Made by a program: the position numbers and the translations under genes. A stretch of 37,059 bases of DNA from Alphaproteobacteria bacterium (GTDB lineage: Bacteria; Pseudomonadota; Alphaproteobacteria; Micropepsales; Micropepsaceae), in assembly GCA_015654705.1 (NCBI GenBank), contig JAATGL010000214.1, positions 1 to 37,059 on the forward strand, given 5' to 3'. The notes under the pieces are model-generated. The model was not told the DNA's origin, searched no databases, and was given only the letters and a program-made list of their open reading frames with translations. The number at the start of each line of letters is the position of its first letter. The stretch's first letter is position 1. This document shows positions 13,274 to 28,975 of this stretch, one piece after another.

Positions 13274-14104
13274 TCAGCGCCGCTTGGACTTGTCGTAGGC
13301 GCCGAGACCGGGCTTGTAGGATTTGTCGTCGATGAACTGCTTGATGCCTTCCTTGCGGCCATTGTTGTCGAAGCTGTTGGCGGCTTCCTGGGCGCGGATG
13401 AGATAGTCCTCGGCATTCTCGTAGGTCATCTCGCGGACGCGGCGGACGGCATCCTTGGTCGCCTTGAGCGCCACCGGATTCTTCTGCAGGAGCACGTTTG
13501 CCACCTCGCGCACGCGCGCCTCGAGTTGCGCCGGCGGAACCGCCTCGTTGACGAGCCGCCATTCGGCCGCCTTCCTGCCGTCGATCAATTCGCCGGTGAG
13601 CGCGTGGTACATCGCATCGCGCATCGAGAGCAGTTCGGTCGCGACCTTGGTCGCGCCGCCGCCCGGCAGGATGCCCCAATTGATCTCGCTGAGGCCGAAC
13701 TTCGCGTCTTCCGCCGCGAAGGCCAGGTCGCAGGCAAAGAGCGGACCGTAGCCGCCGCCGAAGCACCAGCCATTGACCATCGCGATGGTCGGCTTCTGAT
13801 ACCAGCGCAGCCGGCGCCACCAGGTGTAGGCATCGCGCTGCGCGCGGCGCGTGGCACCGAACCCCTTGGCCTCGGTCTCGCGAAAATATTCCTTGAGGTC
13901 CATGCCGGCGCTCCAGGCCTCGCCCGCGCCGCTGAGCACCAGCACGCCGACATCGTCGCGAAATTCGATCGAGTCGAGAAGCTCCGCCATTTCCCGGTTC
14001 AGCGTCGGGTTCATGGCGTTGCGTTTTTCGGGCCGGTCGAACCGGACCCAGGCGATGTGATCCTCGATCGTATGGGAAACGGTGGACCATTGAGATTTCG
14101 ACAC
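13274..14104 (-). CDS. Hydroxycinnamoyl-CoA hydratase/lyase-like crotonase (HCHL family)
   Basis: Crotonase-fold enzyme closely resembling p-hydroxycinnamoyl-CoA hydratase/lyase, which converts feruloyl- or coumaroyl-CoA to vanillin or 4-hydroxybenzaldehyde plus acetyl-CoA. The 276-residue protein shares long signatures with it: NPTLNREM, SGAGEAWSAGMDLKEYF, KPTIAMVNGWCFGGG, FGLSEINWG with the catalytic Glu (E140), and a C-terminal KPGL-AY. Compared from memory with the Pseudomonas enzyme, Y75 is kept (Y73), but S123 is Gly (G120) and Y239 is Ile (I236). The phenol-binding site is therefore altered and the substrate may differ. No CoA ligase gene adjoins it. It follows the XRE-type regulator by 59 bp on the same strand. 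Confidence 0.85.
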   Translation of the reverse strand: MSKSQWSTVSHTIEDHIAWVRFDRPEKRNAMNPTLNREMAELLDSIEFRDDVGVLVLSGAGEAWSAGMDLKEYFRETEAKGFGATRRAQRDAYTWWRRLRWYQKPTIAMVNGWCFGGGYGPLFACDLAFAAEDAKFGLSEINWGILPGGGATKVATELLSMRDAMYHALTGELIDGRKAAEWRLVNEAVPPAQLEARVREVANVLLQKNPVALKATKDAVRRVREMTYENAEDYLIRAQEAANSFDNNGRKEGIKQFIDDKSYKPGLGAYDKSKRR

Positions 14105-15015: not shown

Positions 15016-15045
15016 CGTGGCGACGTCCTGAGGAAACTCTCCATT

Positions 15046-15154: not shown

Positions 15155-16186
15155 CTAATCGGCGTATTTCTGTCGCACCTCGCGCGCGCCGTCGGCCATC
15201 GCCTTCATCTTGGCGAAGGCGACATCGCGCGGCAGATATTTGAGGCCACAATCCGGCGCGACGACGATCCGCGCCGCGTCGACATAAGGCAGCGCCCGTT
15301 CGATCCGCTCCGCGACCATCTGCGGCGTTTCCACCGCGTGGGTGGAGAGATCGAGGACTCCCAGGATGATCGTCTTGCCTTTGAGCGTTTCCAGCACTGC
15401 ACAGTCCAGATTGGACTGCGCCGTCTCGATGGAAATCTGCTTGACCGAGGTTCCCGCGAGTTCCGGAAGAAAGGAGTAGCCGCTCGGCCGCTCGTGGATG
15501 ATTGCCGCATATCCGAAGCAGATGTGCACCGCCGTCGTGCCTTCCACGCCATCGAGCGCCCGCTCCAGTGCCAGGATACCGTATGCGCGGGCCTTTTCGG
15601 GCCGTGCCTGCATATAGGGCTCGTCGATCTGCACCACGTCGGCGCCGGCTGCGAACAAATCCTTGATCTCCTCATTGACCGCCGCCGCATAGTCCAGCGC
15701 CAGTTCCTCTTCATGCGCATAGAAATCGTTCTGCGCCTGCTGCGACATCGTAAACGGCCCGGGCACCGTGATCTTGACGGGCTTGTCCGTGTTGGCCTTG
15801 AGGAATTCCAGATCGCGGACTTCGACCGGGTTGCGCCGCCGGATCTTGCCGGCCACCCGGGGCACCGGATTGGGATGACCGCTGCGGTCCAGGGCGGTCC
15901 CCGGATTGTCGAGGTCGATGCCCTCGAGTTCCGTCGCGAAACGGTTGGAATAGCTCTCGCGGCGGATTTCGCCGTCCGTGATGATGTCCAGCCCCGCCCG
16001 CTCCTGATCCAGGATGGCCAGGCGCGTCGCATCGTCCTGCGCCTCCGCCAGCCATTGGGGATCGACGCGCCACAACTCGGCGGCGCGAACGCGGGGTGGA
16101 AATCGCTTGGCCAGTTTCGAGCGGTCGAGCAGCCAGTCCGGCTGGGCATACGACCCCACGAGACTGGTGGGCAGCATTGGTAGCAT
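15155..16186 (-). CDS. MetE C-terminal-like (cobalamin-independent methionine synthase II family) protein 1
   Basis: A 343-residue TIM-barrel protein matching only the catalytic C-terminal half of MetE. The zinc/thiol-activating ligands are conserved: H221 and C223 in VHICFGYA, E254 in SIETAQSN and C313 in PDCGLKYLP. The N-terminal half needed for folate binding in true MetE is absent, so methionine synthesis is unlikely; relatives include epoxyalkane:CoM transferase and other thiol alkyltransferases. ATG at 16186 has a GAGAGGA ribosome-binding site; longer frames lack one. It is divergent from iclR with an operator pair between them, so IclR control is likely. Thiol acceptor and donor unknown. 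Confidence 0.87.
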   Translation of the reverse strand: MLPMLPTSLVGSYAQPDWLLDRSKLAKRFPPRVRAAELWRVDPQWLAEAQDDATRLAILDQERAGLDIITDGEIRRESYSNRFATELEGIDLDNPGTALDRSGHPNPVPRVAGKIRRRNPVEVRDLEFLKANTDKPVKITVPGPFTMSQQAQNDFYAHEEELALDYAAAVNEEIKDLFAAGADVVQIDEPYMQARPEKARAYGILALERALDGVEGTTAVHICFGYAAIIHERPSGYSFLPELAGTSVKQISIETAQSNLDCAVLETLKGKTIILGVLDLSTHAVETPQMVAERIERALPYVDAARIVVAPDCGLKYLPRDVAFAKMKAMADGAREVRQKYAD

Positions 16187-16241
16187 TGTCTTTCCTCTCC
16201 ATGGTAAGACGGCCGGTTCCAGCGCCATCGATGTTAGAGAA

Positions 16242-16275
16242 TTTCTATACTCGGTGGCATCTTCGAATTCCGAAA
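16242..16275. promoter_or_regulatory. Bipartite IclR-type operator A (metE-like 1 / iclR)
   Basis: Two 15-bp units, TTTCTATACTCGGTG (16242-16256) and CTTCGAATTCCGAAA (16261-16275), are separated by 4 bp. The same layout occurs at three other promoters in this window. A TATACT hexamer (16246-16251) inside the first unit could be a -10 for iclR, and its complement TATAGA (16243-16248) a -10 for the leftward gene. Lying between the regulator and its divergent neighbour, this is the expected place for autoregulation. Confidence 0.7.
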
Positions 16276-16302
16276 ACTGGGGACATCCACGGATAGCCAC
16301 CG

Positions 16303-17187
16303 ATGAAAAAACGCGAAATGACTTCCGCCGAGCCGCGGCGCGGCGCGCGCCGTCAGCGCAAGCCGGCGCCCAAAGGCGAAGCGGAAGAACGGGAAAGTCC
16401 GGATACGGAATACCTTTCGACCCTCGATCGCGGGCTCTCGGTGCTGCGCGCGTTCGGCCGCGAATCCCCGCAGATGACGCTGAGCGACGTGGCCGCGGTC
16501 ACCAGGCTTTCGCCCGCGGCCGCGCGGCGCTGCCTCAACACGCTGGTGAAGCTCGGCTATGTCGCCAAACACCATCGTCATTTCCTGCTGCGCCCGGAAG
16601 TCATGAGCTTCGCGTCCGCCTATCTCGATTCCATGAGCCTCGGCGAACTCGTGCGTCCCCATCTGCAGGCGGTGCGCGACGAAACCGGCGACAGCTCCTC
16701 CCTCGCGGTGCTCAGCGGCTACGACATCCTCTACCTGGTGCATGTCTCCACCAACCGGATGGTCCGCCTGGCCGCCGGCATCGGCACACGCTATCCCGCT
16801 TTCGCGGCCTCCATGGGGCGGGCGATCCTGGCCTTCGAGGCAGAGAGCGTGCGCGCACACTATCTCAACACGGGCGCCTTCAAAGCGTTTACCGAACATA
16901 CCGTCACGTCAAAGACCGAGCTCAAGCGCATCCTCGCGGAGGTCCGCAAAAACGGCTACGCGGCGGTCCAGGACGAACTCGACTACGGTCTCGTCTCGTT
17001 GTCCGTTCCCATCCTCGACGAAAGCGGCAGGTCGATGGCGGCGATAAATTGCTCCACCTCCACCGCACGCGTGCGAAAGGAAGAGTTGATCCGCACGCGC
17101 CTTCCGGTCCTTCGCAGTGCCGCGCAATTCATCGAAGCGGCGCTCCGCCGCCAGCCCTATCTCCTGCGTTCCGTCCATCCCGATTGA
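16303..17187 (+). CDS. IclR-family transcriptional regulator (PcaR/PobR-like)
   Basis: A 294-residue regulator with a basic N-terminal extension, a winged HTH at about 40-100 (LDRGLSVLRAFG, MTLSDVAAVTRLSPAAARRCLNTLVKLGYV) and a GAF-like effector domain (about 115-285, with GIGTRYPAFAASMGRAILAF and DYGLVSLSVPILD). It most resembles the PcaR/PcaU/PobR branch that senses aromatic acids. It sits beside four copies of a shared bipartite operator and is the only IclR in the window, so it is the natural candidate to bind them. The effector is unknown and may be the acid handled by the neighbouring CoA transferase and lyase. The stop is 11 bp from the convergent TonB receptor gene. Confidence 0.9.
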   Translation: MKKREMTSAEPRRGARRQRKPAPKGEAEERESPDTEYLSTLDRGLSVLRAFGRESPQMTLSDVAAVTRLSPAAARRCLNTLVKLGYVAKHHRHFLLRPEVMSFASAYLDSMSLGELVRPHLQAVRDETGDSSSLAVLSGYDILYLVHVSTNRMVRLAAGIGTRYPAFAASMGRAILAFEAESVRAHYLNTGAFKAFTEHTVTSKTELKRILAEVRKNGYAAVQDELDYGLVSLSVPILDESGRSMAAINCSTSTARVRKEELIRTRLPVLRSAAQFIEAALRRQPYLLRSVHPD

Positions 17188-17198: not shown

Positions 17199-19490
17199 TT
17201 AGAACTTCTTGGTCACTTCGAAGCCCCAGGAAAGCGGCTGTCCTTTGAAGAGGAAGCCGCCGGTCGAATATTCGGTGTTGTATTTCACGTCGAAGAGGTT
17301 CTTCGACCACACCGTGAAGCGCCAACTGTCCCGTTCGAGGCCCATCCGCAGATCGACCAGATTGACGGGGTCGCGCGCGATCGGATGCGGTTCGCTCACC
17401 ACCGGGATCACGAAGGTCGTCGGCCCGATGATGTTGTAGTCGAGCCGGGCGAAGAAATTGGTCTCCTCGGTGAGAGGATGGTCGAATTGAAGACCGATAT
17501 TGCCGGTGTAGTCCGAGACCAGCGGCGCCCGCGCGCCGATCGCGCTGGGCGTCGCGGGCGAGCTGGTCGGGAATTGCCGGATATCGCTGTCAGTATAGCC
17601 GAAGCCGGCGTTCAGGGCGAGGTGTTCATCCAATCGCGCGGTCAAATCGAGGTCGAAACCCGCGAACTGCACCTTCTTGATATTGCCGAGGTTTTGGGTC
17701 GAGTTGGAGGCGAGGAACACGAAGTAATAATCGTTGTGATCCTCCGTCAAATAGGCACTGCCGTTGAGCAGGAGCCGGTCGTCCAGCCAGTGGCTCTTGA
17801 ACCCGGCTTCATAGGTGTCGGCGATCTCGGCATTGAAAAGATCGCCGACATTGTCGAAGTTCGCCGCCGCCGCGGCCTGTGCGACGCCGGTCTGGTTGAA
17901 GCCGCCGCTGCGGAAGCCCCGGCTGTAATCGGCGTAGAGATTCATGTTGTCGGTCGCCTGCCAGCGCAGGATGAACTGCGGCTGGAATGCGGACCAGGTG
18001 TGCGCCCGTTTCTCGCCGGTGGTCGCCGGGATGGCCGCGCGTCCCGTGATGGGATTGGCGTCCAGGAATTCCTGGGGCGTCAATGTCGTGTTCACGCGGT
18101 GGTCGCTGTCGTAGCGCATGTTGACGGAGAGTTCGAGCGCGTCGGTGATGTCGTACGACATGTCGACATAGCCGGCCCAGGCGAACTGATTCTGGTCGTC
18201 CGCCAGGAAGCTGACCTGCGACAGCGGCGCAAAGGAATCAATGCCGAATTGCGGATTCGGCGTGCGGAAGATCGGCTCCACGCCCGCATCTGCGGTGCCG
18301 TCGTACATGTTGCCGGTCGAGATGTAGCGCTGGGTGTCGAAAATCTCGGCGCCGGCGATATAGCGGAACCGCTGATCGGCCGCCGAGGTGTAGCGCACCT
18401 CCTGGCTGAACGTTTTCACGTCCAGGAACTGGGCCTGGCCGTAGTCGAAGCCTACGTCGGATTGGCCGAACGGATCGAAGCCATAGCCGTCGCCGGTGAG
18501 AATTTCCCACACGGTGCTGTAACCCGTGATCGAGGACAGCGTGCCGCCCTGCACCTCGTAACTCAGCTTGAGCGCCGCGGCGTAGATCTTGCGGTCGTCC
18601 AACCCGGAATTGTTCAGATTGATCGGCTGTGACGTGAAGTTCGGATCGTTGAAATGCGGCGAACCGAAGGGCGGCACGACGTAGTAGAGGCCCCGCGTGG
18701 TCAGAAGATCGGTCGACAGCCTCAGATCGGCGGTGAAATCGCCATCCGGCGTCCACAGGAACGACACGCGGCCGCTGAAATCCTGGACGGGATCGGCATT
18801 GCGCCGCGCGGACGGGTCCTTCGTGTCGACGTTGGTCAGCAGGCCGTCGGTGTTGAGATAGGACGCAGCCGCGCGCATCTTCAGCGTGTCGGTCAGCGGG
18901 CCGCTGATCACCCCGTCGACATTGCCGCCGGGCCCGTTGTCGTAGCCGGCCGTGAACGCCTCTTCCCAGCTATCGCCCGGCTGCTTGGTGGTGATCAGGA
19001 TGGCGCCGCCGATGGCGTCGCGGCCGTAGAGAGCACCCTGCGGCCCCTTCAGCACCTCGATCTGCTGGATATCGAGCAGGTTCTGGTTGAACTCGGCGGG
19101 CTGGGTCATCGGCACGCCGTCGACCACGATCGCAGCGGAGGGTTCGCTGTTGCGCGCCTGGGAAATGCCGCGCATGACGATGAAACTCGTGCCGGAATTC
19201 TGTGTGGAAATGAACGTCACATTCGGCACGGCGCTGAGGAAGTCGGCCGGGCTCTTGATGCCCTTGGCCTCGATCGCCTCGGCCGTGAAGGCGGTGACCT
19301 GCGCGGGCACCTTCTCGATATCTTCCTTGCGCTGGCGTGCGGTGACGACCACCGTCTCGATCGTATCGGTGCTCGCGCCGTTCGCCTGTGCGTGGACGGG
19401 CGCCGCACTCCACAGGCAGCCGGCAAGCGCCGAACACCCCATGAGCGTCTTGACGACAAGGTTCGAACGACCTGAACCGGTCCGTGACAT
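17199..19490 (-). CDS. TonB-dependent outer membrane receptor 1
   Basis: A 763-residue outer-membrane active transporter. It has a signal peptide (to about residue 36, VHAQ), a TonB-box-like segment DTIETVVVTARQR, a plug domain (about 55-165, with the LKGPQGALYGRDAIGGAILITTK region) and a 22-strand barrel ending in aromatic F (VTKKF). A GGGGGGA ribosome-binding site precedes the ATG. No siderophore-specific motif is evident; in this kind of bacterium such receptors often import plant- or lignin-derived compounds. The promoter, 160-190 bp upstream, carries the same operator pair as iclR, so uptake is probably co-induced with the CoA transferase and MetE-like genes. Confidence 0.93.
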   Translation of the reverse strand: MSRTGSGRSNLVVKTLMGCSALAGCLWSAAPVHAQANGASTDTIETVVVTARQRKEDIEKVPAQVTAFTAEAIEAKGIKSPADFLSAVPNVTFISTQNSGTSFIVMRGISQARNSEPSAAIVVDGVPMTQPAEFNQNLLDIQQIEVLKGPQGALYGRDAIGGAILITTKQPGDSWEEAFTAGYDNGPGGNVDGVISGPLTDTLKMRAAASYLNTDGLLTNVDTKDPSARRNADPVQDFSGRVSFLWTPDGDFTADLRLSTDLLTTRGLYYVVPPFGSPHFNDPNFTSQPINLNNSGLDDRKIYAAALKLSYEVQGGTLSSITGYSTVWEILTGDGYGFDPFGQSDVGFDYGQAQFLDVKTFSQEVRYTSAADQRFRYIAGAEIFDTQRYISTGNMYDGTADAGVEPIFRTPNPQFGIDSFAPLSQVSFLADDQNQFAWAGYVDMSYDITDALELSVNMRYDSDHRVNTTLTPQEFLDANPITGRAAIPATTGEKRAHTWSAFQPQFILRWQATDNMNLYADYSRGFRSGGFNQTGVAQAAAAANFDNVGDLFNAEIADTYEAGFKSHWLDDRLLLNGSAYLTEDHNDYYFVFLASNSTQNLGNIKKVQFAGFDLDLTARLDEHLALNAGFGYTDSDIRQFPTSSPATPSAIGARAPLVSDYTGNIGLQFDHPLTEETNFFARLDYNIIGPTTFVIPVVSEPHPIARDPVNLVDLRMGLERDSWRFTVWSKNLFDVKYNTEYSTGGFLFKGQPLSWGFEVTKKF

Positions 19491-19652: not shown

Positions 19653-19697
19653 AATCTAGGGTGTTTCGATTTGCGAAGTCAATTTCGATATATGGAA
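19653..19697 (-). promoter_or_regulatory. Bipartite operator B with promoter of TonB receptor 1
   Basis: Units TTTCGATTTGCGAAG (19664-19678) and TTTCGATATATGGAA (19683-19697) are separated by tcaa. On the minus strand the -35 TTGACT (19677-19682) falls across that linker and the -10 TAGATT (19653-19658) follows after 18 bp, so a bound regulator would overlap the -35 on both sides. The receptor start is 163 bp downstream of the -10. The rest of the 232-bp gap (19491-19722) shows no gene. Confidence 0.68.
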
Positions 19698-19722
19698 GGT
19701 CACAGATTGCGGCGCGGTGCGG

Positions 19723-20901
19723 CTATTCTGCCGCATTGGCGGGCTTCGCCTCTTCGACGCGCCAGACATGCCCCGTCGGCGCTTTGCGGATTTGGTCGTT
19801 GTGTTCGCCGAGCGTCGGCGGCGCCTTGATCTCCGACAGGCGCTGGCCGTCGAAATTGACCGGAAAGCGCACGGTGCGGAAGCGCCCCATCGTGGGATGA
19901 TGGGTCTCCACTTCGATGCCCAGATGCTTTGCCTGACGATCCTCCAGCGCCTCGCTCGAATCGTACACCGGCGCAAAGGGAACGCCGCGCACATCGAGCG
20001 CCGCACACCATTCCGCGCGCGTCTTGCCCTTGAAAATCGGGGCCATCAACGCGATCAGGTCTTCCTGATGCGCGATGCGGCCCGGCCGGTCGGAAAAACG
20101 CGGATCCCTGAAGAGGTCGGCGCACCCGATCGCCTGCGCCAGACCTTCCCAGAACTTCAGGGGAGACGACATGTGCAGCGCGATCCATTTCCCGTCCAAA
20201 CATTCGAAGACATAGGATTGCGACACGCTGGGGCGGCTATACGGGCCCATGATCTCGTCGGCCGAGAAGTAATGCGTGAAATCGTCGAGATTGAAGTGGC
20301 ACATCGCCTCCAGCATCGAGATGTCGACGCGCCGTCCGCGGCCGGTTCGCGCACGTTCGTAGAGCGCGCCGAGCGCGCCGAACGCCGCATAAAATCCCGT
20401 CGTCGCATCCGCGATCGCCGGACCCACCACGCGGGGATTTGCGGGATTTATCAGCAGGCGCAGCCAGCCGCTCGCGGCCTGGGCAACGGTGTCGTAGGCG
20501 GGGCGGCCGGCGTCTGGCCCGGTCTGTCCGAAGCCGGAAATGCTGCAATAGATGAGTGAAGGATTGATCTTCTGCAGCCGCTCCGCGCCGACGTTCAAAT
20601 CCTCGGCGACGCCCGGGCGGAAATTCTGGATGAAGATGTCCGCTTCCGAAATGATCTGGTCGAAGAGCTTGAGATCGTTCGCGTCGCGGCTGTCCAGCGT
20701 GACGCTGCGCTTGTTGTGATTGTAGGTCTGGAAATGCGCACTGTAGAGACCGCCCTCGAAGGCGCGGAACGGATCGCCCGTCTCGGGGCGCTCCACCTTG
20801 ATGACGTCGGCGCCCATATCGGCGAGATACATCGCGGCGGCAGGGCCGGTGATGAACGTGCCCATCTCGACAACCCGGACACCGTCGAGGACTTTGATCA
20901 T
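19723..20901 (-). CDS. CaiB/BaiF-family (class III) CoA transferase
   Basis: Transfers CoA between carboxylic acids in the cytosol via an aspartyl anhydride. The 392-residue protein shows the family landmarks: LDGVRVVEMGTFITGPAAAMYLADMGADVIKVE at the N-terminus, HFQTYNHNKRSVTLD, FIQNFRPGV, and catalytic D137 in RPAYDTVAQAASG. ATG at 20901 has a GGGAG site 5 bp upstream. The divergent neighbour is a citrate-synthase-fold lyase homologue, and both are read from a region holding the IclR-type operator. By analogy with itaconate-type pathways, the pair could activate an acid and cleave the CoA ester; the substrate is not identifiable. Confidence 0.91.
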   Translation of the reverse strand: MIKVLDGVRVVEMGTFITGPAAAMYLADMGADVIKVERPETGDPFRAFEGGLYSAHFQTYNHNKRSVTLDSRDANDLKLFDQIISEADIFIQNFRPGVAEDLNVGAERLQKINPSLIYCSISGFGQTGPDAGRPAYDTVAQAASGWLRLLINPANPRVVGPAIADATTGFYAAFGALGALYERARTGRGRRVDISMLEAMCHFNLDDFTHYFSADEIMGPYSRPSVSQSYVFECLDGKWIALHMSSPLKFWEGLAQAIGCADLFRDPRFSDRPGRIAHQEDLIALMAPIFKGKTRAEWCAALDVRGVPFAPVYDSSEALEDRQAKHLGIEVETHHPTMGRFRTVRFPVNFDGQRLSEIKAPPTLGEHNDQIRKAPTGHVWRVEEAKPANAAE

Positions 20902-20987
20902 CTTTTCTCCCAGCCGCCTGGCGCGGTTGCCGCGCGGGACCAAGCCATCCTCGGCCTCGGGCTGGCGATGCGAATACCCGGCCGGCA

Positions 20988-21031
20988 GACTAAGTTTTTC
21001 CGGATGTCGAAGTCAATTTCGATATTCGGTA
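20988..21031. promoter_or_regulatory. Bipartite operator C between CaiB and citryl-CoA-lyase-like genes
   Basis: Units TTCCGGATGTCGAAG (20998-21012) and TTTCGATATTCGGTA (21017-21031) are separated by tcaa, as in operator B. On the minus strand -35 TTGACT (21011-21016) and -10 TTAGTC (20988-20993) are 17 bp apart, giving a transcript start about 80 bp before CaiB. A plus-strand promoter for the divergent lyase-like gene must lie in the same stretch but is not clear. Confidence 0.68.
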
Positions 21032-21116
21032 ATTGCCCTTGCAAACCCGAAGGACCGAAGTAAACACTCCTTGTTCGGATTTTGCGCGGCCGCGGCCGCG
21101 AGCGGGGAACAATCGG

Positions 21117-21905
21117 ATGCGGATCGGCAAGCAGGATGCTCCATACACGGCCATCTCCACGGCGGACGCGGCGTCGATCACGGTGCGCGGGCGCGATCTG
21201 TGCCGCGACCTCATCGGGAAGATCGATTTTGTCGATTACTTCTTCCTGCTGCTGATGGGCGAGGAGCCTACGGCAACCCAGCGGTTTTTCGTCAATGCGC
21301 TATTGGTCGCAATCGCCGAGCACGGGCTGGTGCCGAGCATCCAGGCGGCGCGCATGACCTATGCGGCGGGCCCGGAGGCGATCCAGGGCGCGGTCGCGGC
21401 CGGCCTGCTCGGTTCCGGCTCCGTGGTGCTCGGCAGCGCCGAGACCGCGGGTCAATTCCTGCACCAACTTGTCGAGGCGTCGCGCGGACATGACGCGGCG
21501 ATCATCGCGGCGGAGCGCGTGCGCCAGATGCGCGCGACCAAGACCGCGATTCCGGGGTTCGGACATCCGCAACATTCCGGCGGCGATCCCCGCGCGAATG
21601 TCCTGCTGTCGCTGGCCCGGGACCACGGTCTCGCCGGTCCCTATATCGACATGCTGCGGACGGTCGAGGCCGTGCTACCGCAAGCGCTGGGGCGCTCCCT
21701 GCCGATCAATATCAACGGAGTCGTTCCCGCGATCCTGCTGGAGATCGGGTTTCCGGTCGGCGCCTTGAAGAGCATCTCCATCCTTGCGCGCACGGCCGGC
21801 CTTCTGGCGCATCTGCGGGAGGAAGCCGAACGCCCCATCGGCTTCATCATGTCCCATGCCGCGGCTAGCGCGATTTCCTATGACGGCAGGCAGAGCACAG
21901 AATAG
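21117..21905 (+). CDS. Citryl-CoA lyase / citrate-synthase-like protein
   Basis: A 262-residue protein with the small citrate-synthase fold used by citryl-CoA lyases and the C-terminal part of ATP-citrate lyase; it would cleave or form a C-C bond next to a CoA thioester. Recognised by GFGHPQHSGGDPRA (the conserved His and substrate-binding Arg region) and ARTAGLLAHLREE near the end. The segment that normally reads N-V/I-D carrying the catalytic Asp is N198-I199-N200, so Asp is replaced by Asn. ATG at 21117 fits the family length; an open extension upstream runs into the operator. It is divergent from CaiB. Citrate as substrate is not proven. Confidence 0.82.
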   Translation: MRIGKQDAPYTAISTADAASITVRGRDLCRDLIGKIDFVDYFFLLLMGEEPTATQRFFVNALLVAIAEHGLVPSIQAARMTYAAGPEAIQGAVAAGLLGSGSVVLGSAETAGQFLHQLVEASRGHDAAIIAAERVRQMRATKTAIPGFGHPQHSGGDPRANVLLSLARDHGLAGPYIDMLRTVEAVLPQALGRSLPININGVVPAILLEIGFPVGALKSISILARTAGLLAHLREEAERPIGFIMSHAAASAISYDGRQSTE

Positions 21906-21926
21906 CGGCGCGGTTTTCGCGAAGTC

Positions 21927-21988
21927 TTTACAAGCATGGCGCATAGCGGATAATCTAAGACTCTCGAAAATATTTTCGATATACGAAA
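21927..21988 (+). promoter_or_regulatory. Promoter and bipartite operator D of metE-like 2
   Basis: A promoter TTTACA (21927-21932), 18 bp, TAATCT (21951-21956) is followed at the expected transcript start by units CTAAGACTCTCGAAA (21955-21969, only its right half matches) and TTTCGATATACGAAA (21974-21988, the best copy in the window). The overlap CGAAAATATTTTCG (21965-21978) is a perfect palindrome. Unlike B and C the operator lies over and after +1, fitting repression by blocking. The second unit ends 6 bp before the ATG, and no Shine-Dalgarno is visible. Confidence 0.68.
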
Positions 21989-21994
21989 TCGGCG

Positions 21995-23173
21995 ATGCAG
22001 CGCAGCACGGATCGCTTTCTGACGACGCACACCGGGAGCCTGCCCCGGCCCGACGACCTCGTGCGCCTGATGTTCGCCAGGGAAGAAGGCGTCCCCATCG
22101 ATGCGGATGCGCTCGACCGCCGCGTGCGCGAAGCGGTCGGCGAGATGGTCGCCCGGCAGGTTGCGGCGGGCATCGATATCGTCAATGACGGCGAGATGTC
22201 GAAGCCGAGCTACGCGACCTATGTGAAGGACCGCCTGGACGGCTTCGGCGGCAGCGGGAACAGCTACGTCTTCCAGGACCTCGTCGATTTCCCGAGGAGC
22301 GCGGCGCGCGTTTTCGGCGATCCCGGACGCAAGGCCCGCCGGGCGCCCGCATGCACCGGCCCGATCGCGTTGAACGACCGGCGATCGCCCAGGCTGGACA
22401 TGAACAATCTCGTCGCCGCCGCGAGCGGAAAGAAAATCGAAGGCCTTTTCTCGAGCGCGGCTTCGCCGGGGGTGATATCGCTGTTCTTCCGCAACGACTT
22501 TTACAAGACGCATGAGGAATACCTTTTCGCCATCGCCGAAGCGATGCGGTACGAATACGAGACGGTCGCCGAAAGCGGCGCCACGCTGCAACTGGACTGC
22601 CCGGACCTCGCCATGGGCCGTCACGTCCAGTACGCGGATTTGAGTCTTGCGGAATTCCGCAATCGCATGCGCCTCCATATCGAGGCGCTCAATCACGCGG
22701 TGCGCAACATTCCCGCCGACCGTTTGCGCATGCATATGTGCTGGGGCAATTATCCCGGCCCGCACCATTGCGACGTTCCCTTCGCCGATATCATCGATGT
22801 GCTGGCCGTGGCCAAGCCGTCCGCGGTGCTGTTCGAGGCGGCCAATCCACGCCATGCCCATGAATGGAAGATGTTCGAGGAGGTGAAGCCGCCCGAGGGC
22901 AAGGTGTGGATTCCAGGCGTCATCGAATGCCAGTCGAATTACATCGAGCATCCTGAACTGGTGGCCCAGCGCATCGAACGCTATGCTAATCTCCTGGGGC
23001 CGGAAAACGTGATGGCGGGCGTGGATTGCGGTTTCAGCATTCACGTCGGCCAGGGCGGCGTCGATCCGGACGTGGTCTGGGCCAAGCTCGCGGTCCTGGC
23101 GGAGGGCGCGCGGATCGCCTCCGCAAGGGTCTGGCGGACAACAAACAAGGTTGCGGCAGCGGCAACCGAATGA
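21995..23173 (+). CDS. MetE C-terminal-like (cobalamin-independent methionine synthase II family) protein 2
   Basis: Second zinc methyltransferase-like TIM barrel, 392 residues, only distantly similar to the one at 15155. It starts with the common FLTTHTGSLPRPDDLV motif and keeps the metal ligands H247 and C249 (HMCWGN), E281 (FEAANPRH) and C345 (VDCGFS). It lacks the N-terminal half of true MetE. The family includes epoxyalkane:CoM transferase and many uncharacterised alkyl transferases near degradation genes. It carries operator D directly in front and is followed 18 bp later by the VOC gene, so they form an operon. The reaction, perhaps removal of an alkyl or methoxy group to a thiol, is a guess. 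Confidence 0.87.
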   Translation: MQRSTDRFLTTHTGSLPRPDDLVRLMFAREEGVPIDADALDRRVREAVGEMVARQVAAGIDIVNDGEMSKPSYATYVKDRLDGFGGSGNSYVFQDLVDFPRSAARVFGDPGRKARRAPACTGPIALNDRRSPRLDMNNLVAAASGKKIEGLFSSAASPGVISLFFRNDFYKTHEEYLFAIAEAMRYEYETVAESGATLQLDCPDLAMGRHVQYADLSLAEFRNRMRLHIEALNHAVRNIPADRLRMHMCWGNYPGPHHCDVPFADIIDVLAVAKPSAVLFEAANPRHAHEWKMFEEVKPPEGKVWIPGVIECQSNYIEHPELVAQRIERYANLLGPENVMAGVDCGFSIHVGQGGVDPDVVWAKLAVLAEGARIASARVWRTTNKVAAAATE

Positions 23174-23191
23174 ACAGGCAGGAACGCACCG

Positions 23192-23728
23192 ATGAACACG
23201 GAAACGAAACTCCCTAGCCGCCTCCATCACACCGCCTATGTCACCAACGACATGGAGGCGACGCGCAAATTCTATGAGGAGGTGATCGGGCTTCCTCTGA
23301 TCGCGACGTGGAGCGAGGGCGACGATCTGTTCGGCGCCAGGCGCATCTACTGTCACTGCTTTTTCGGATTGGGGGATGGCGGCGCACTGGCGTTCTTTCA
23401 ATTCGCCCATCCCGAAGATCAGGAACAGTTCGGGCCCAAGATGCCCTTCTCGCCCTTCCACCATATCGCGCTCAATGTCGACGCGGAGACGCAGAACGGC
23501 ATCGAAGAACGGCTCAAGGCGGCCGGCTACAGGGAGCCGGAGAGCTATGTGCTGGAGCACGGCTATTGCCGATCCGTTTATGCCACGGATCCCAACGGGA
23601 TGATCGTGGAGTTTACGCTGGATGCGCCCAATGCGGCGGAGATCAACAAAACGCGACTCGCCCATGCGCATCAGGAACTCGCGCGATGGCTGAGCGGCGA
23701 TCACACCTCGAACAACACCTACCGCTGA
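23192..23728 (+). CDS. VOC-superfamily (glyoxalase/bleomycin resistance/dioxygenase) protein
   Basis: A 178-residue protein with paired beta-alpha-beta-beta-beta modules: LHHTAYVTNDMEATRKFYEEVIGL at the start and FHHIALNVDAE in the middle. It ends with DPNGMIVEFTLD, whose Glu, with the His residues of the two modules, forms the usual metal site. VOC proteins may be isomerases, lyases, ring-cleaving dioxygenases or binding proteins; this one is too short for a typical two-domain extradiol enzyme. It is 18 bp downstream of metE-like 2 with an AGGAA ribosome-binding site, so it likely serves the same pathway. Confidence 0.88.
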   Translation: MNTETKLPSRLHHTAYVTNDMEATRKFYEEVIGLPLIATWSEGDDLFGARRIYCHCFFGLGDGGALAFFQFAHPEDQEQFGPKMPFSPFHHIALNVDAETQNGIEERLKAAGYREPESYVLEHGYCRSVYATDPNGMIVEFTLDAPNAAEINKTRLAHAHQELARWLSGDHTSNNTYR

Positions 23729-23829: not shown

Positions 23830-25263
23830 ATGGATACGGAAACGTTGCTCCAGGAAATTTCGCGCTATTGCCGGAGCGCCGGAATGGCCGAGTCGACATT
23901 CGGCCGGCGCGCGGTGAATGACGGCAAATTCGTTACCCGCCTGCGCCATGGCGGCCGAGTTACGACCTCCACCATCGAACGCGTCCGCGCATTCATCGAT
24001 GCAAATACCATGGGGGAGGCAGGCAATTCAGCAAACGGTCGGGCCCCGGGCGGCGGCCGGCCCATGGTGGTACCGTTGCCGACGTCCTCCGGCCCGCGCG
24101 ACACGGCGCAACACGAAGTCGCCAGCCCGGAGCACAATTTCCGCTTCTTCGACAATCGCCAGAAATACCTGATGTTTGTCAACACCTGCAGCGAGAAATG
24201 GGTGGTGGCTGGCCGCGTCGATCTGGAACTCGCCAATCTACGGCCCCAGCCTCCGGCGATCCGCGTCTTCGATGCGGGTGTCGGCGACGGGACGGTGCTG
24301 ACGCGCGTCATGCGTTCGCTGCACCGCCGTTTCGAACACCTGCCCTTCTACATCGTCGGAAAGGAAATCAGCCTCGAAGACGTGCGGCTCGCACTGGAAA
24401 AGCTGCCGGACCGCTTCCAGGAGCACCCCGCGACCGTCTTCATCATGACCAACCTGCACTATGCGGAGGCACCCTGGCTGCTGCCGGACCAGCCGGCGGC
24501 CGCGGCCGACCTTGTCTGGCATGAGGTGAAATTGCATGGCGATAAGGCCGCGGAGTTCGACGAGCAGATCACGGAGCTTCAGCCGTTCCTCGCCGCCAAC
24601 TGGCGCGCTCGGGTCAGCCGGAAGAGCGGCAATCCGATCTATGAAAAGCCCGTCGTCCTCGTCATCTATCGCGAGGACCGCGGATTTCTGCTCGACCGCG
24701 TGCTGCCCGAGCGCAGCGCCATCCGTGCGGACTACGATCTGGTGATCGCCTCGCAGCCCTATCGCGCGCGCGCGTCCGTCGAATTCAAGGCGAGGCGGGT
24801 GATCGCGCCGCTGGTGCGCAGCCTGGCGCCGGACGGACGGCTGATCGGCATCCACTCGTTTGGACACGATCCGGGGATGGAGATCGTTCAGCACGTCTGG
24901 CCCGGCGAAAATCCTTTCCAGACGAGCCGCCAGGAACTGCTGCAGGTCACAAAGGAAGAACTCGGCCAGACGGCGCACCGATACGATTTCCACGCTTATA
25001 CCGACGAACGTGCGATCTTCCGCTACGACATGCACACGCTGCCCGGCGAAATCGACTCGAGCGCGGCGTCCATCGGCACCTCGAGGCTGTTCGCGGCCTG
25101 GAACGCCGCCACCTATGTGGCGCAGATCGAGGATCAGCGCCTGACCGAAGCCATGACCAATGACGGCTATCTCGAGGCGACCCGGGAGGTTCTGCGTGCG
25201 CGCAACGGTCTGTGGTTTCTCGACGAGTCCTTCGTCATATCGCGCAGCAACACGTCTCCCTAG
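23830..25263 (+). CDS. SAM-dependent methyltransferase-like protein with N-terminal HTH
   Basis: A 477-residue protein. Residues 1-58 look like a small helix-turn-helix (STFGRRAVNDGKFVTRLRHGG, then VTTSTIERVRAFI), followed by a proline/glycine linker. A class I methyltransferase domain starts with motif I, IRVFDAGVGDGTVL, at about 144-157. The remainder (to about 470) is longer than a minimal methyltransferase fold and has no motif I recognise; acceptor residues cannot be named. The start is ATG 23830; further upstream the frame overlaps the VOC gene out of phase and is not coding. The gap to the VOC gene is 101 bp. It may methylate the pathway substrate, or sense it through the HTH; function unknown. 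Confidence 0.78.
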   Translation: MDTETLLQEISRYCRSAGMAESTFGRRAVNDGKFVTRLRHGGRVTTSTIERVRAFIDANTMGEAGNSANGRAPGGGRPMVVPLPTSSGPRDTAQHEVASPEHNFRFFDNRQKYLMFVNTCSEKWVVAGRVDLELANLRPQPPAIRVFDAGVGDGTVLTRVMRSLHRRFEHLPFYIVGKEISLEDVRLALEKLPDRFQEHPATVFIMTNLHYAEAPWLLPDQPAAAADLVWHEVKLHGDKAAEFDEQITELQPFLAANWRARVSRKSGNPIYEKPVVLVIYREDRGFLLDRVLPERSAIRADYDLVIASQPYRARASVEFKARRVIAPLVRSLAPDGRLIGIHSFGHDPGMEIVQHVWPGENPFQTSRQELLQVTKEELGQTAHRYDFHAYTDERAIFRYDMHTLPGEIDSSAASIGTSRLFAAWNAATYVAQIEDQRLTEAMTNDGYLEATREVLRARNGLWFLDESFVISRSNTSP

Positions 25264-25297: not shown

Positions 25298-26008
25298 TCA
25301 GCCCGCGTCCTGCGGCACGATGGGCTTTCCGGTCACCGGATGCGGACAGTGGAACGGCACGACGCTCGTCTTCGGCCACAGCACGCGATGCGGCTCGGTC
25401 GCAAGCACATCGGGGCCGATGGGGTCTTCCGGATATGTCTTGCTGAAGAACGGCACGAATTCAGCCGGCGTATGCGCCCAGCCCTTCTCGAAGGTGGCGT
25501 GCCAGACCGGATTGTAGTCCAGCACCTTGATCTTCCAGATTCCGCCCTCGCGGACATATTCGTTCTCGTAGACCCCGCCTTCCCACCATTGGCGCGGCAA
25601 CTGGCCTTGTGCCGTCGCGCTCTCGTGCCGGCCGGCCTGCATCATGCTGCGGGCGCGCGCCTTGGCGGTCTTGCGGTCCGGAGCCACGTCGATGACGTCC
25701 TGGATCTGCGGATGGTCGAGCAGGAAGCCGAACACCGGACCGTTGATGTCGTTGGTGAAGTTCTTGCGGAAGCGGCCGACATAGAGCCGGCGCACGCCGG
25801 TCTTGCCCTTGAAGATGCCGCCCATGAAACGCACCTCGCCGTCATCGGCAAACAGATCAACGGTCTCGTCATAGAGGCATTTGTCGATGAAGTAGCCGTA
25901 GAGATGCTGCAGCCGCCGGATCGCATGGATGTCTTCGAGAACGCCGATCTGGCGCATCAGGCTTGCGACGTGATTTTCGAGCTGTTCGATTCTCTGTTCC
26001 GCAGTCAT
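25298..26008 (-). CDS. NTF2/SnoaL-like protein (cytoplasmic type)
   Basis: Third member of the local NTF2-like family, 236 residues, with no signal peptide. An N-terminal heptad-like helix (RIEQLENHVASLMRQIGVLED) precedes the domain signature RRLQHLYGYFIDKCLYDETVDLFADD, and the C-terminal tail PFHCPHPVTGK repeats the NPVTG-type motif of the other two proteins. ATG at 26008 has GGGAG 8 bp upstream; an ATG 15 bp earlier has no ribosome-binding site. It lies 116 bp downstream of TonB receptor 2 on the same strand and is probably co-transcribed with it. It converges on the methyltransferase gene. Catalytic role unassigned. Confidence 0.85.
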   Translation of the reverse strand: MTAEQRIEQLENHVASLMRQIGVLEDIHAIRRLQHLYGYFIDKCLYDETVDLFADDGEVRFMGGIFKGKTGVRRLYVGRFRKNFTNDINGPVFGFLLDHPQIQDVIDVAPDRKTAKARARSMMQAGRHESATAQGQLPRQWWEGGVYENEYVREGGIWKIKVLDYNPVWHATFEKGWAHTPAEFVPFFSKTYPEDPIGPDVLATEPHRVLWPKTSVVPFHCPHPVTGKPIVPQDAG

Positions 26009-26124
26009 TTCCAAGTCTCCCATATGTTTTTCGCCGGCAGTTTGAAGGAACGCCCTTTATCAAAGAATGGGGCGCAGACAACGTGTCGCCACGCCGTCCG
26101 CGCCCCCTTGATGACCGGAGTTTC

Positions 26125-28827
26125 CTAAAAATTCTTCCTCAAGGTGAGCGACCATTCGCGCGGCGCGCCCGGTTGCGCCTCGACCGTGCCCTCTCCGAAG
26201 ATCGCGAAATCTTCCATGTCGAGGAAGTACTTCTTGTCCGTCAGGTTGGTGACGGCGGCCGACACCTGCCAGCCGCCCGCCGGAGCGTCCCAGGTCAACC
26301 GTGCATTCAGCAATCCGCGGGCCGGAATGTCCGTGTAGGGATTGTTGTTCGCATCCTCGTAAATGGTCGACTGCCAGCTGTAGTCCAGGCGCGGCGTCAG
26401 CGAGCCGAGGGACGTGCCGACATTGATGGTGTACTGCGCGCCGACATCGAAGGTCTGGGAGGGGAACAGGATCGGATTGGTGCCGATCCTCACTGTGCCC
26501 GGTGCCGCCTGCGGGCAGATGCCGGCGGTCACCGCCGCCGGCGTACAGCCGTCGAGATAACCGGGCACCGCCCCCGGAACCGGATTGCCGCGGAAATTCA
26601 CATAGGAATAATTGGCGGTGATCAGCATGTTGTCGATCGGCGCCGCCTGGCCTTCCAGCTCGAATCCCTTGTCCTTCGAAGAACCCAGGTTAACGTAGAG
26701 CACTTCCGGCAGCGGGAAGCCGAGGCTGGTGTCGGTCTCGGCGAGCGGCGTGATCGTATTGGTGTAGTCGGCCAGATAGAACGCCGCATTGAACCGCAAA
26801 CGATGGTCGAACCAATCGGTCTTGGCACCAATTTCATAGCTCTTGATCTCTTCCGGTCCGTAGCTGTTGAGCTGGTCGGGCGCGAAGGGGCGCGAGTTGG
26901 TGCCCCCTGTCCGATAGCCGGTCGAAAACTGGAAGTAGCCCATGACGTCGTCGGTCACGTGATAGTCGAGCCCAGCGCGCCAGTCTGGCCTGTTTGTGCG
27001 CGAGGTGTGCGGCGTGAGCGCGGGATGGATGCTGTGGTCGCAGAGATGGCCCGCGAAGATGTTGCAGTCGAGGGCTGGATCGACCGTCGCGCGGAAGAAG
27101 CCGCTGCCAGGATAGCCCGGAACCTCACCCGAATGGTCGAAGTAATACGTCTTGGTTTCCCGCGTGTAGCGGAAGCCGCCGAAGAACTCCAGATTATCCC
27201 AGAGATGATAGATCAGATGGAGATAAGCCGACTTGTTCTCGGTCTTGTAGGTGTCGTTCTGCTCGAAGACCAGGAAGGAATTGCCCTCGTCCCAATCGGC
27301 ATCCAGGATGACAGGACCGCGCGCGTGGTTGGTGCGGTCGTAATAGAATACGCCCGCCGTCCAATCGAGGTGATTGTCGAACAGCTCACCGGTGAAGCGT
27401 CCTTCCTGCTGGAACTCACGGTTCTGGGGATAGGTGGTGGTGAGCTGGTACGACATCGGAGAGACGTCCGAGTCGTTCGAGTAGCCGCCCAGGTAATAGC
27501 GATAGCCGGTGATCGATTTGAAATGGATGCCGTCCGTGATGTCCCAGTCGAACAGATTGGTGACGCCCCAGGTGTGCAGTTTTTCTCCCTCGGTATAGCG
27601 CAAGCCGTTCTGGCTCGTGTACGTGCCATAGGTCTCCGTATACGGATGGGTCGGAATGAAGCGCTGATCCCACGGGATGCCGTATTGTGCGAGCGGTCCA
27701 GATCTCGGCAGAGTCGCATAATTCAAGCATTGCGTGTAGACGGCCTGATTGGCGCCCGCGCAATTCCACACCGGAATGCCGGACGCGGCAGCCGGAGCGC
27801 CGGCGGAATTGAGGCCGACGAATTGCCCGCGTGGAACAGACTGCAGGCCGTTGCCGCGATTGTAATAGGCCAAGCCCGTCGTGCCCGAAGGATCGCCGAA
27901 CGTGCCCGGGTCGGCGGCATAGAGCACATCGGGGGTCAACTCGGAGTTGTCTCGGATCACATCGACGGAGAGATTGTCCTCGATGTGTTCGTTTATCTCC
28001 CCGCGCAACGCGAGACGGCCGCCGGCGACGTCGGTGCCGCCCTGCGTGCCGATCTTGCAGTCCGGCCGAGTCGTGAGAACCGGCAGGCTTCCCGCGCCGG
28101 TCGGTCCGGTGCCCGATCCAAACCGGCAGGCATAATCGATCACGTCGACATAGCCGTCCTGGTTGCGTGAGGCCGCCGACACGCGCAGGAACAGGTGATC
28201 GGGCACGACCGTCAGGTTCATCGCACCCTTGACGTTGATCTCGTCGAAGGAGCCGTAAGTGCCTTCCAGATAGCCGCTGTTGTCGTCCGTCGGCTTCTGA
28301 CTGATCATGCGGATCGCGCCGCCGATGTCGTTCTTGCCGCCCAGCACGCCCTGCGGACCCTTGAGCACCTCGATCCGATTGAGGTCGAGCAGGTCCATCA
28401 CCGTGCCCGACATCGTGCCGTAATAGATGTCGTCGATATACATACCGACGCCCGGCTCGCTGGCGAACGCCGTGTCGTATTGACCGATGCCGCGGATGTA
28501 GGTCTGCACGCCGTTGCCGAACGCGGCGGGCGCCTTGTTCAGCATCAGGCCGGGCACGCTGGTGCCGATCTGGGAGAGGTCCTCGATCCCGCGCTGCTGC
28601 AGGTCCTGCGCCGTCACGGCGGAGATGGCCAGAGGCGTCGATTGCAGGTTTTGCTCCTTGTACTGTGCCGTCACGACGACGGTTTCGATGCCCCCTGTGG
28701 TGTTCGCGGCGACCTGCGTCTGCGCCGACGCGGCGTTCGCCAGCACCGTGGCCAGGGCCAATATCGACGCCGTGGCCGTGAGATTGCGATTTCCCCGCGC
28801 GTTTCGGCTAACTCTTGAACTGGTCAT
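26125..28827 (-). CDS. TonB-dependent outer membrane receptor 2
   Basis: A 900-residue outer-membrane receptor, larger than receptor 1. Signal peptide to about residue 36 (ASAQ), TonB-box-like GIETVVVTAQYKEQ, plug domain with IEVLKGPQGVLGGKNDIGGAIRMIS, and a barrel ending LRKNF. An insertion-rich extracellular part around residues 310-400 contains several Cys-flanked loops. ATG at 28827 follows GGAGAGGGGACAG; an upstream in-frame ATG at 28854 lacks such a site. Its promoter region (28828-29080) is shared with the divergent LuxR-type regulator and lacks a clear copy of the IclR operator, so this receptor appears to be under separate control. Confidence 0.92.
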   Translation of the reverse strand: MTSSRVSRNARGNRNLTATASILALATVLANAASAQTQVAANTTGGIETVVVTAQYKEQNLQSTPLAISAVTAQDLQQRGIEDLSQIGTSVPGLMLNKAPAAFGNGVQTYIRGIGQYDTAFASEPGVGMYIDDIYYGTMSGTVMDLLDLNRIEVLKGPQGVLGGKNDIGGAIRMISQKPTDDNSGYLEGTYGSFDEINVKGAMNLTVVPDHLFLRVSAASRNQDGYVDVIDYACRFGSGTGPTGAGSLPVLTTRPDCKIGTQGGTDVAGGRLALRGEINEHIEDNLSVDVIRDNSELTPDVLYAADPGTFGDPSGTTGLAYYNRGNGLQSVPRGQFVGLNSAGAPAAASGIPVWNCAGANQAVYTQCLNYATLPRSGPLAQYGIPWDQRFIPTHPYTETYGTYTSQNGLRYTEGEKLHTWGVTNLFDWDITDGIHFKSITGYRYYLGGYSNDSDVSPMSYQLTTTYPQNREFQQEGRFTGELFDNHLDWTAGVFYYDRTNHARGPVILDADWDEGNSFLVFEQNDTYKTENKSAYLHLIYHLWDNLEFFGGFRYTRETKTYYFDHSGEVPGYPGSGFFRATVDPALDCNIFAGHLCDHSIHPALTPHTSRTNRPDWRAGLDYHVTDDVMGYFQFSTGYRTGGTNSRPFAPDQLNSYGPEEIKSYEIGAKTDWFDHRLRFNAAFYLADYTNTITPLAETDTSLGFPLPEVLYVNLGSSKDKGFELEGQAAPIDNMLITANYSYVNFRGNPVPGAVPGYLDGCTPAAVTAGICPQAAPGTVRIGTNPILFPSQTFDVGAQYTINVGTSLGSLTPRLDYSWQSTIYEDANNNPYTDIPARGLLNARLTWDAPAGGWQVSAAVTNLTDKKYFLDMEDFAIFGEGTVEAQPGAPREWSLTLRKNF

Positions 28828-28975
28828 CTGTCCCCTCTCCTGCTTCGACGGCATTTGCCGTTCGCTCAGCCGATGCGCGGAAGCGACACCGGCTTTTTTG
28901 TCCGCAGACTGAAAATTCTTCGAAGTTCTTGGCCTGCCTGTTCGTCGAAGCTACTATTGGTCGAAAAAACGTTCA

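Follow-up and report, generated by a model that had tools for sequence, protein, structure and literature searches.

In Sphingobium SYK-6, O-demethylation proceeds by a LigM/DesA-MetF-PurU system, in which LigM is an established O-demethylase, and the ring is cleaved by LigABC. Itaconate degradation relies on a CoA transferase, a hydratase and a CitE-type citramalyl-CoA lyase. In enzymes of the citrate-synthase fold, an Asp is a catalytic member of the active-site triad. MesD of Sphingomonas koreensis, as described by Price et al. (2021, PMC7857596), makes methionine without folate. Here we analyzed a 37,059-nucleotide stretch of alphaproteobacterial DNA (hereafter the window), which contains a gene block that shares elements with each of these systems. 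Sequence comparisons lead us to propose, tentatively, that the block could well serve, under IclR control, in the catabolism of a methoxylated hydroquinone- or quinone-type aromatic, with ring fission; the substrate would probably be lignin-derived.

The open reading frames of CaiB, the lyase, MetE2 and the VOC protein are real, and profile matches bear out the positions given to them in the initial annotation. MetE1 falls outside the range 19723-23728. CaiB matches PF02515 over its full length (residues 19-382, profile positions 1-366 of 366) and probably starts at the ATG at 20898, whereas the lyase start conserved among relatives is the ATG at 21117 rather than 21033. An open reading frame at 13083-14090 on the minus strand was rejected as a wrong frame of the hydratase-lyase gene. 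WrbA and hydrolase genes, which occur in related blocks, are absent from the block in the window; the genome to which it belongs is 75.6% complete.

Features of the block and its neighbours, with positions in the window
Feature	Position	Strand	Support or remark
p-Hydroxycinnamoyl-(feruloyl-)CoA hydratase/lyase	13274..14104	-	NF006588, 473.2 bits (cut-off 276); neighbour outside conserved block
MetE-like 1 (MetE1), methionine-synthase catalytic fold without folate domain	15155..16300	-	PF01717, 117.2 bits
IclR regulator, PcaR/PcaU/PobR-like	16303..17187	+	PF01614, PF09339
TonB-dependent receptor 1 (TonB1)	17199..19490	-	PF00593, PF07715
Operator-like site upstream of TonB1	19674..19697	+	Repeated sequence
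CaiB/BaiF family III CoA transferase (CaiB)	19723..20943	-	PF02515, 363.9 bits
Operator-like site in CaiB/lyase gap	21008..21031	+	Site in 23/24 loci tested
Citrate-synthase-fold lyase, 'citryl-CoA lyase' subfamily	21117..21905	+	NF004868, 306.5 bits (cut-off 193)
Operator-like site before MetE2	21965..21988	+	Repeated sequence
MetE-like 2 (MetE2)	21995..23173	+	PF01717, 36.2 bits (cut-off 21)
One-domain VOC protein	23192..23728	+	PF00903, 45.9 bits (cut-off 20.6)
g19, no family assigned	23830..25263	+	In 7/25 block loci
SnoaL-like protein (g20), neighbour	25298..26023	-	PF13577
TonB-dependent receptor 2 (g21, TonB2), neighbour	26125..28854	-	PF00593

Of 195 related genomes, the same 8 contain orthologues of MetE2, the lyase and the VOC protein (at least 77% identity), and because of this co-occurrence the association of the three is above chance. 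The order IclR-TonB1-CaiB-lyase-MetE2-VOC is kept in all seven genomes of the same genus that carry a MetE2 orthologue. The block recurs with reshuffled gene order in sphingomonads, Marinicaulis, Hyphomonadaceae and Niveispirillum, and a genome scan of the best 80 of 567 relatives yielded 13 new loci with CaiB and the lyase in other orders, as well as one locus (L063) in which the block is cut by a contig end. One contig that was recovered twice (L051 and L037, both 170626 bases) was treated as a duplicate. Among 25 block loci picked for holding several block genes, CaiB, the lyase, VOC and TonB1 were each found in 24, IclR in 23, a hydrolase in 20, WrbA in 15 and MetE1 in 13; MetE2 is present by construction in 22 of them, as these were found via MetE2 searches. 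The additional partners in other genomes are the WrbA quinone reductase (at L110:8793-9395, 317.8 bits to TIGR01755 against a cut-off of 132.5) and enol-lactonase-like or esterase-like hydrolases. Named hosts include Sphingobium phenoxybenzoativorans SC_3, Sphingorhabdus rigui DSM 29050 and Marinicaulis flavus SY-3-19. The block occurs in many soil and water bacteria. A description of this block was not among the matches listed from the open-licence literature, within which the route may not have been described.

A sequence of the type CGAARTCAATTTCGATAT is present at 19674, 21008 and 21965, preceding TonB1, the CaiB/lyase pair and MetE2. The shared operator proposed in the initial annotation is thus real as a repeated sequence. 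Searched for in the genome of the window (G000) with up to 3 mismatches allowed, the pattern matched 5 times and the reversed-pattern control 0 times. In the CaiB/lyase gap the site beat all 50 shuffles in 23 of the 24 loci tested; the sole failing gap was that of L139, whose 20-kb stretch contains no IclR gene. The site also lies directly before MetE2 in 7/7 same-genus loci. The IclR regulator scored 258.7 bits with TIGR02431 (PcaR/PcaU/PobR), below the cut-off of 284.75. One shared regulator probably switches the block, with IclR as the predicted protein that would bind the site. The genes are linked and share an upstream site, and the catabolic unit with a TonB receptor that had been suggested for this DNA is conserved and apparently co-regulated. 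A lack of conserved neighbourhood in other genomes, named in the initial annotation as grounds for rejecting that suggestion, was not observed. The alternative that these genes are chance neighbours without shared function, for which no evidence was found, is left with next to no probability by the co-occurrence of MetE2, lyase and VOC in the same genomes, by their linkage in other orders in other families and by the shared site. In G000 the same site precedes another TonB gene that neighbours LigAB genes; an opposite open reading frame separates LigAB from this site, and LigAB are not read from it.

CaiB contains an AIADATTG motif, which may hold the catalytic Asp of family III CoA transferases, and it is close to formyl-CoA and succinate-hydroxymethylglutarate CoA transferases. 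In the alignment, the lyase has NING where solved enzymes have NVDG, placing an Asn at the position of the catalytic Asp. This position is never Asp in 20 aligned lyases; it is Asn or Ser, except in those of L180, L195 and L196, which have Gly/Ala/Thr-type replacements. For lyase relatives of at least 46% identity outside the block, CaiB was nearby at 11 of 15 loci and a ring-cleaving dioxygenase at 9 of 15; the latter was not found at the other 6, nor at any of four loci with relatives at 38-43%. The lyase matched in 94 plasmid records; 18 of these were examined via that match and another, R. rhodochrous, via its VOC match. Six unannotated lyase stretches were read by tblastn. Other lyase-CaiB clusters contain intradiol or LigB enzymes or an ATZ-like amidohydrolase, and one substrate cannot fit all of these clusters. 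R. rhodochrous BX2 has a lyase (40%), CaiB and VOC (61%) together with Rieske and VanB-type genes. LigA and LigB genes precede the block in Niveispirillum. We rejected the idea that CaiB and the lyase replace LigK in this organism, since LigK itself is encoded further upstream (TIGR02798, 405.8 bits against a cut-off of 304.5); judging from their sequences, the genes adjoining LigK may be LigJ- and LigC-like, the LigJ-like protein having no NCBIfam model match.

An aliphatic hydroxy-diacid route would explain some of these features. In such a route, an acid that resembles citramalate or citrate and bears an alkyl or methoxy group would be activated by CaiB and then cleaved by the lyase; VOC would act as a glyoxalase or an epimerase, and ring opening would play no part. 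The 'citryl-CoA lyase' subfamily of the lyase, the nearest relatives of CaiB, the glyoxalases among the VOC matches and the LeuCD-type hydratases within some lyase clusters all agree with such a route. We nevertheless consider it unlikely, given the dioxygenases at 9 of the 15 outside loci, the presence in 15 of the 25 block loci of WrbA, which suits quinones, the PcaR/PcaU-like regulator and the lack of the citrate-synthase Asp in the lyase. The initial annotation had suggested import and breakdown of an alkylated or methoxylated acid by itaconate- or citramalyl-type logic. A methoxylated substrate gained support from the neighbouring genes described below; the itaconate-type logic did not, because of the ring-cleaving dioxygenases near lyase-CaiB pairs, the resemblance of VOC to a ring-cleaving enzyme and the missing lyase Asp.

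The AlphaFold model of VOC (pLDDT 88.8) matched homogentisate 1,2-dioxygenase (9u42) with an E-value of 1.3e-12 at 26% identity, with glyoxalases close behind in the same list of structure matches. H12, H13, H91 and E140 are invariant in 15/15 sequences and are predicted to include the metal ligands; glyoxalases share such a two-His-one-Glu site. From this model, the one-domain VOC protein is a probable ring-cleaving dioxygenase. In four alphaproteobacterial stretches (L141-L144), and likewise in Streptomyces SAT1, VOC relatives of 49-55% identity are accompanied by neither a lyase nor CaiB. Of the four plasmid VOC records, two were examined via the VOC match and Niveispirillum via the lyase, and Paraburkholderia FT54 was left out.

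In MetE2, the putative zinc ligands H247, C249, E281 and C345 are invariant in 11/11 MetE2-type sequences, and the His and both Cys residues align with 1ypx. Block copies account for 24 of the 27 leaves under their common ancestor in the MetE2 tree, and when the genes surrounding non-block relatives of MetE2 were clustered, no clear partner emerged among the largest clusters. On plasmid pUSP2 of Aminobacter MSH1, a MetE1-like protein (70% identity) adjoins a lyase, CaiB and a LigB-type extradiol enzyme. At E ≤ 1e-20, MetE1 had no match in two genomes (G010 and G025). Because Niveispirillum has the core block without a match to MetE1 or MetE2 at this threshold, the scheme does not depend on the MetE proteins. 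A GST gene lies near MetE2b in the genome of the window. DMSP cleavage (DddD) and an epoxyalkane transferase were considered as candidates and set aside.

If MetE1 and MetE2 were methionine synthases, or took part in a MesD-like methyl salvage, the operon would couple catabolic methyl groups to methionine supply. The best-scoring models of MetE1 are PRK09121 'methionine synthase', which corresponds to MesD, and PRK04326. However, the score of 257 bits is below the curated cut-off of 392 (PRK09121; NF006589). Conservation of the putative zinc ligands of MetE2 fits the proposal, as does folate-free methionine synthesis in S. koreensis (PMC7857596). Of 11 genomes searched, 9 had a MetH that exceeded its cut-off and G000 had MetH in two contig-broken pieces; it was missing only from G336. 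Since MetH is present, methionine synthesis is unlikely as the main role of the block. MesX had no match in any of the 11 genomes, and control genomes were equally silent. Overall, we judge a role in methionine supply to be distinctly improbable.

Another alternative is that the MetE-like proteins catalyse thiol addition to an epoxide or quinone, in the manner of epoxyalkane:coenzyme M transferase, and that VOC isomerises or cleaves the adduct. This enzyme, as we assume, belongs to the same catalytic fold family (PF01717), and WrbA in relatives and the GST gene would suit electrophile chemistry. However, an FAD monooxygenase, one of the additional genes that were traced, turned up at a single block locus (L102), and the MTHFR genes near g19 speak for methyl groups. 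We therefore give thiol addition little weight.

Neighbouring genes may link the block to methoxylated aromatics and one-carbon metabolism. A feruloyl-CoA hydratase-lyase gene, whose product matches feruloyl-CoA hydratase/lyase (PDB 7xwc) with an E-value of 1.3e-126, lies 1.1 kb from the block; it may be there by chance, as no such gene was seen in those flanking stretches that were fetched for relatives. An MTHFR gene is present in at least 5 of 12 stretches of 12 kb fetched around g19 in other genomes. The AlphaFold model of g19 itself is poor (pLDDT 57.7) and had no PDB match at E 0.001. Homologues of g20 (74%) and g21 (73%, cut by the stretch end) are carried by a LigM/PurU cluster in genome G027. 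The hydratase-lyase, the LigAB-adjacent TonB gene with its site, the MTHFR neighbours of g19 and the LigM/PurU cluster favour a methoxylated aromatic as substrate. Because LigM is already present in G027, the MetE proteins need not demethylate.

In the pathway that we propose for such a substrate, TonB1 would import the methoxylated aromatic, as its family suggests. MetE1 and MetE2, as putative zinc enzymes without a folate domain, would transfer the methyl group or groups to a thiol and from there to one-carbon metabolism, and WrbA, in relatives, would keep the ring reduced. VOC would then open the ring, and the hydrolase that accompanies most block loci elsewhere would open a lactone or ester. 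CaiB would place CoA on the resulting oxo or hydroxy diacid, which the lyase would cleave into an acyl-CoA and an oxo acid. A more specific version is possible but doubtful: the MetE-fold pair would be new corrinoid-free, folate-domain-free zinc demethylases acting on activated methoxy groups, of the vinylogous-ester or enol type, that quinones or ring-fission products carry, in a ring-cleavage route ending with a CoA transferase and an Asp-less citrate-synthase-fold lyase in place of an aldolase or thiolase. If true, the proposed pathway would be an unrecognised way in which several families of Alphaproteobacteria consume methoxylated aromatics from plants, and a function could be assigned to members of two protein families that carry no annotation beyond 'methionine synthase II' and 'citryl-CoA lyase'. 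The question can be tested directly by way of the block, its shared site and the named hosts.

Each part of the block resembles a described system and departs from it. MetE1, a catalytic domain without a folate domain, resembles MesD in size and best models, but it scores below the curated cut-off and lies in a catabolic block, with MetH in most of the genomes. The lyase belongs to the citrate-synthase C-terminal fold family, as do citryl-CoA lyase and the CCL module of ATP-citrate lyase (6hxp, 6nzy and 6qcl), and two conserved His positions (AEHG and PGFGH) align with these enzymes; it differs in the NING motif. VOC shares fold, length and HHE-type residues with VOC-type homogentisate 1,2-dioxygenase (9u42) and L-DOPA dioxygenase (6on1), although its identity to 9u42 is low and no gene seen in the block encodes a maleylacetoacetate isomerase or a fumarylacetoacetase. 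The block shares the logic of CoA transferase plus lyase with itaconate degradation, but its lyase is of the citrate-synthase family rather than CitE, and the outside relatives of this lyase lie near aromatic ring-cleavage genes. As for the SYK-6 system, the one-carbon genes near g19, the G027 LigM cluster with its g20 and g21 homologues, and the LigAB genes adjoining a TonB gene with the block's site in the window's genome are points of likeness. Neither a GcvT-fold demethylase nor a LigK-type aldolase was seen among the block genes; instead, the block has MetE-like enzymes, VOC, CaiB and a CoA-type lyase.

The initial annotation had proposed a degradation route built on a CaiB-type CoA transferase, a citrate-synthase-fold lyase, MetE-like proteins and a VOC protein. 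We found the genes in the window as it described, and the observation was strengthened. The stretch from CaiB to VOC is flanked on the left by a TonB-dependent receptor gene (TonB1), an IclR regulator and a first MetE-like gene (MetE1), and on the right by g19, which encodes a protein without known family. A single gene separates MetE1 from a hydroxycinnamoyl-CoA hydratase-lyase gene 1.1 kb away; no such gene was found in the relatives' flanks that were fetched. An alpha/beta hydrolase stands near MetE1 or IclR in all seven same-genus relatives, and its place in the window is occupied by an XRE/MmyB-type regulator (14164-15141). Close to the right edge is a PcaJ-type 3-oxoacid CoA-transferase subunit B (35871-36776; TIGR02428, 331 bits, cut-off 243.55).

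Core genes of the block in the window
Feature	Position	Strand
CaiB	19723-20943	-
Citrate-synthase-fold lyase	21117-21905	+
MetE2	21995-23173	+
VOC	23192-23728	+

MetE2 matches (E <= 1e-20) occurred in 40 of 195 related genomes, and orthologues (at least 78% identity) in only eight, all of one genus and including the window's own. Exactly these eight hold the lyase (at least 77%) and VOC (at least 78%) orthologues. The order IclR-TonB1-CaiB-lyase-MetE2-VOC is kept in all seven further genomes of the genus; MetE1 is present in five, and the other two (92% and 82% complete) gave no MetE1 match at E <= 1e-20. When a collection of 84,980 species was scanned with a MetE2 alignment, CaiB and lyase were found in the fetched stretches of 14 loci among the best 80 of 567 relatives (one, L051, being on the same contig as L037). 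At L063 the block is cut off by the contig end, and the other 65 loci carry MetE2 without the block. The genes stand in other orders in the CaiB-plus-lyase loci, an argument that their linkage is under selection. In a midpoint-rooted tree of 101 sequences, block MetE2 copies (24 loci) made up 24 of the 27 leaves under their common ancestor.

Partners were counted in 25 chosen block loci. CaiB, lyase, VOC, TonB1 and MetE2 were each present in 24, IclR in 23, WrbA in 15, MetE1 in 13, g19 in seven and a PNPOx-like protein in five. The one WrbA scanned (L110) was an equivalog-level match. One of three alpha/beta hydrolases occurred in 20 loci, the window being among the five without; the two types scanned scored best against 3-oxoadipate enol-lactonases, though far under cut-off. 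Niveispirillum cyanobacteriorum (plasmid NZ_CP025613.1) carries the block, and neither MetE2 nor MetE1 matches were found in its genome at E <= 1e-20. The MetE enzymes thus look like an entry step rather than part of the lyase chemistry.

Between CaiB and lyase, where a shared operator had been noted, lies an operator-like site, and near-identical sites precede TonB1 and MetE2. We built a matrix from the three sites and scored the CaiB/lyase gaps of 24 loci with it; the best score (19.9 to 39.3 bits) exceeded all 50 mononucleotide shuffles of the same gap in 23, the window's own gap, which trained the matrix, counting as illustration only. In the L139 gap the best score was 1.7 bits, and L139 is the only one of the 24 loci without IclR in its stretch. 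We infer that IclR binds this site. Across 11 genomes, every match with at most one mismatch lay inside a block except one on another contig of the window's genome (C263:14640). Nine more out-of-block matches had two or three mismatches (reversed-pattern control, two in total); one with two mismatches is G034:C8:150707-150730.

The C263 site stands upstream of another TonB receptor gene. Across promoter, site and leader this gene matches TonB1 at 74% identity over 330 bases (L043:6350-6760 versus window 19300-19760), a pattern that looks like promoter capture. Both leaders contain a short perfect inverted repeat, GGCATCG...CGATGCC, between site and start codon (window 19510-19535; L043 6480-6505). 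Nearby are LigA, LigB, a SnoaL-like protein, a second MetE2-family protein (48%), a beta-keto acid cleavage enzyme and a GST. LigAB is transcribed toward the TonB gene and an opposite ORF separates it from the site, so the regulon count takes in only the TonB gene and possibly this ORF.

MetE1 and MetE2 share only 26% identity over 340 positions and match different models. The putative zinc ligands of MetE2 (H247, C249, E281, C345) are kept in 11 of 11 aligned sequences. Four MetE2-type matches (59-61%) lie in tandem at L125:8066-12300, in an alphaproteobacterial MAG labelled Baikal-deep. In other alphaproteobacteria (L042, L048, L049) MetE2-family genes adjoin HisD/HpsN-like dehydrogenase, SDR and LacI-type genes (named by reading), so its members may belong to different pathways.

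An MTHFR gene shares a 12-kb stretch with g19 in at least five of 12 loci fetched around g19; block locus L034 and, by a weak match, L063 carry one too. A cluster in genome G027 (L230; C1:2780001-2800000) combines two MTHFR-like genes, representing both kinds, with LigM (NF047885, 742.7 bits, cut-off 580), PurU (342.6 bits, cut-off 285.95), a lignostilbene-dioxygenase-like gene (503.9 bits, under the cut-off of 800) and homologues of the window's SnoaL-like protein (g20, 74%) and second TonB receptor (g21, 73%). MetH scored above cut-off in nine of 11 genomes searched, was split across two contigs in the window's genome and was not found in G336; its presence argues against a housekeeping methionine role for the MetE-like proteins. 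Together, the g19-MTHFR linkage, the LigM cluster, the hydratase-lyase and MetH make methyl removal from lignin-type aromatics the favoured reading. That the MetE-like proteins themselves carry out demethylation has roughly an even chance.

The VOC model (pLDDT 88.8) matched 9u42, titled homogentisate 1,2-dioxygenase from Acinetobacter (E 1.3e-12, TM 0.72 by query, 26% identity), followed by GloA2 glyoxalase and L-DOPA dioxygenase. All 15 homologues compared share H12, H13, H91 and E140. More distant relatives (49-55%) occur in four alphaproteobacterial stretches and in Streptomyces where neither lyase nor CaiB was seen; one adjoins Rieske oxygenase subunits and another a MetE1-like and a fumarylacetoacetase-family protein. 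One of these four stretches, a second G027 cluster (L144; C1:704001-724000), holds a VOC (53%), a MetE1-like protein (49%), a fumarylacetoacetase-family hydrolase, an esterase-like protein and a regulator read as LacI-type. Overall, the block probably serves aromatic ring-fission catabolism; methoxyhydroquinone or methoxyquinone as substrate is a guess, and an unlikely one. No description of the block was found in the open-licence literature searched.

Among 15 outside-block lyase relatives of at least 46% identity, CaiB was near 11 and a LigB-type or intradiol dioxygenase near nine (one match, in C. necator, at only 28%). Neither was near any of four relatives at 38-43%; a Rhodococcus rhodochrous lyase (40%), with CaiB and a VOC (61%) beside it, stands as an exception. 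Immediately ahead of lyase, CaiB and a LigB-type enzyme in Aminobacter sp. MSH1 sits a protein 70% identical to MetE1 and annotated as a URO-D-family member. This cluster gives independent support, from outside the block, for a link between MetE1, CaiB, lyase and ring cleavage. When aligned with solved CCL modules, the window's lyase shows Asn where they carry an Asp that we take to be catalytic, a substitution that makes plain citryl-CoA cleavage doubtful.
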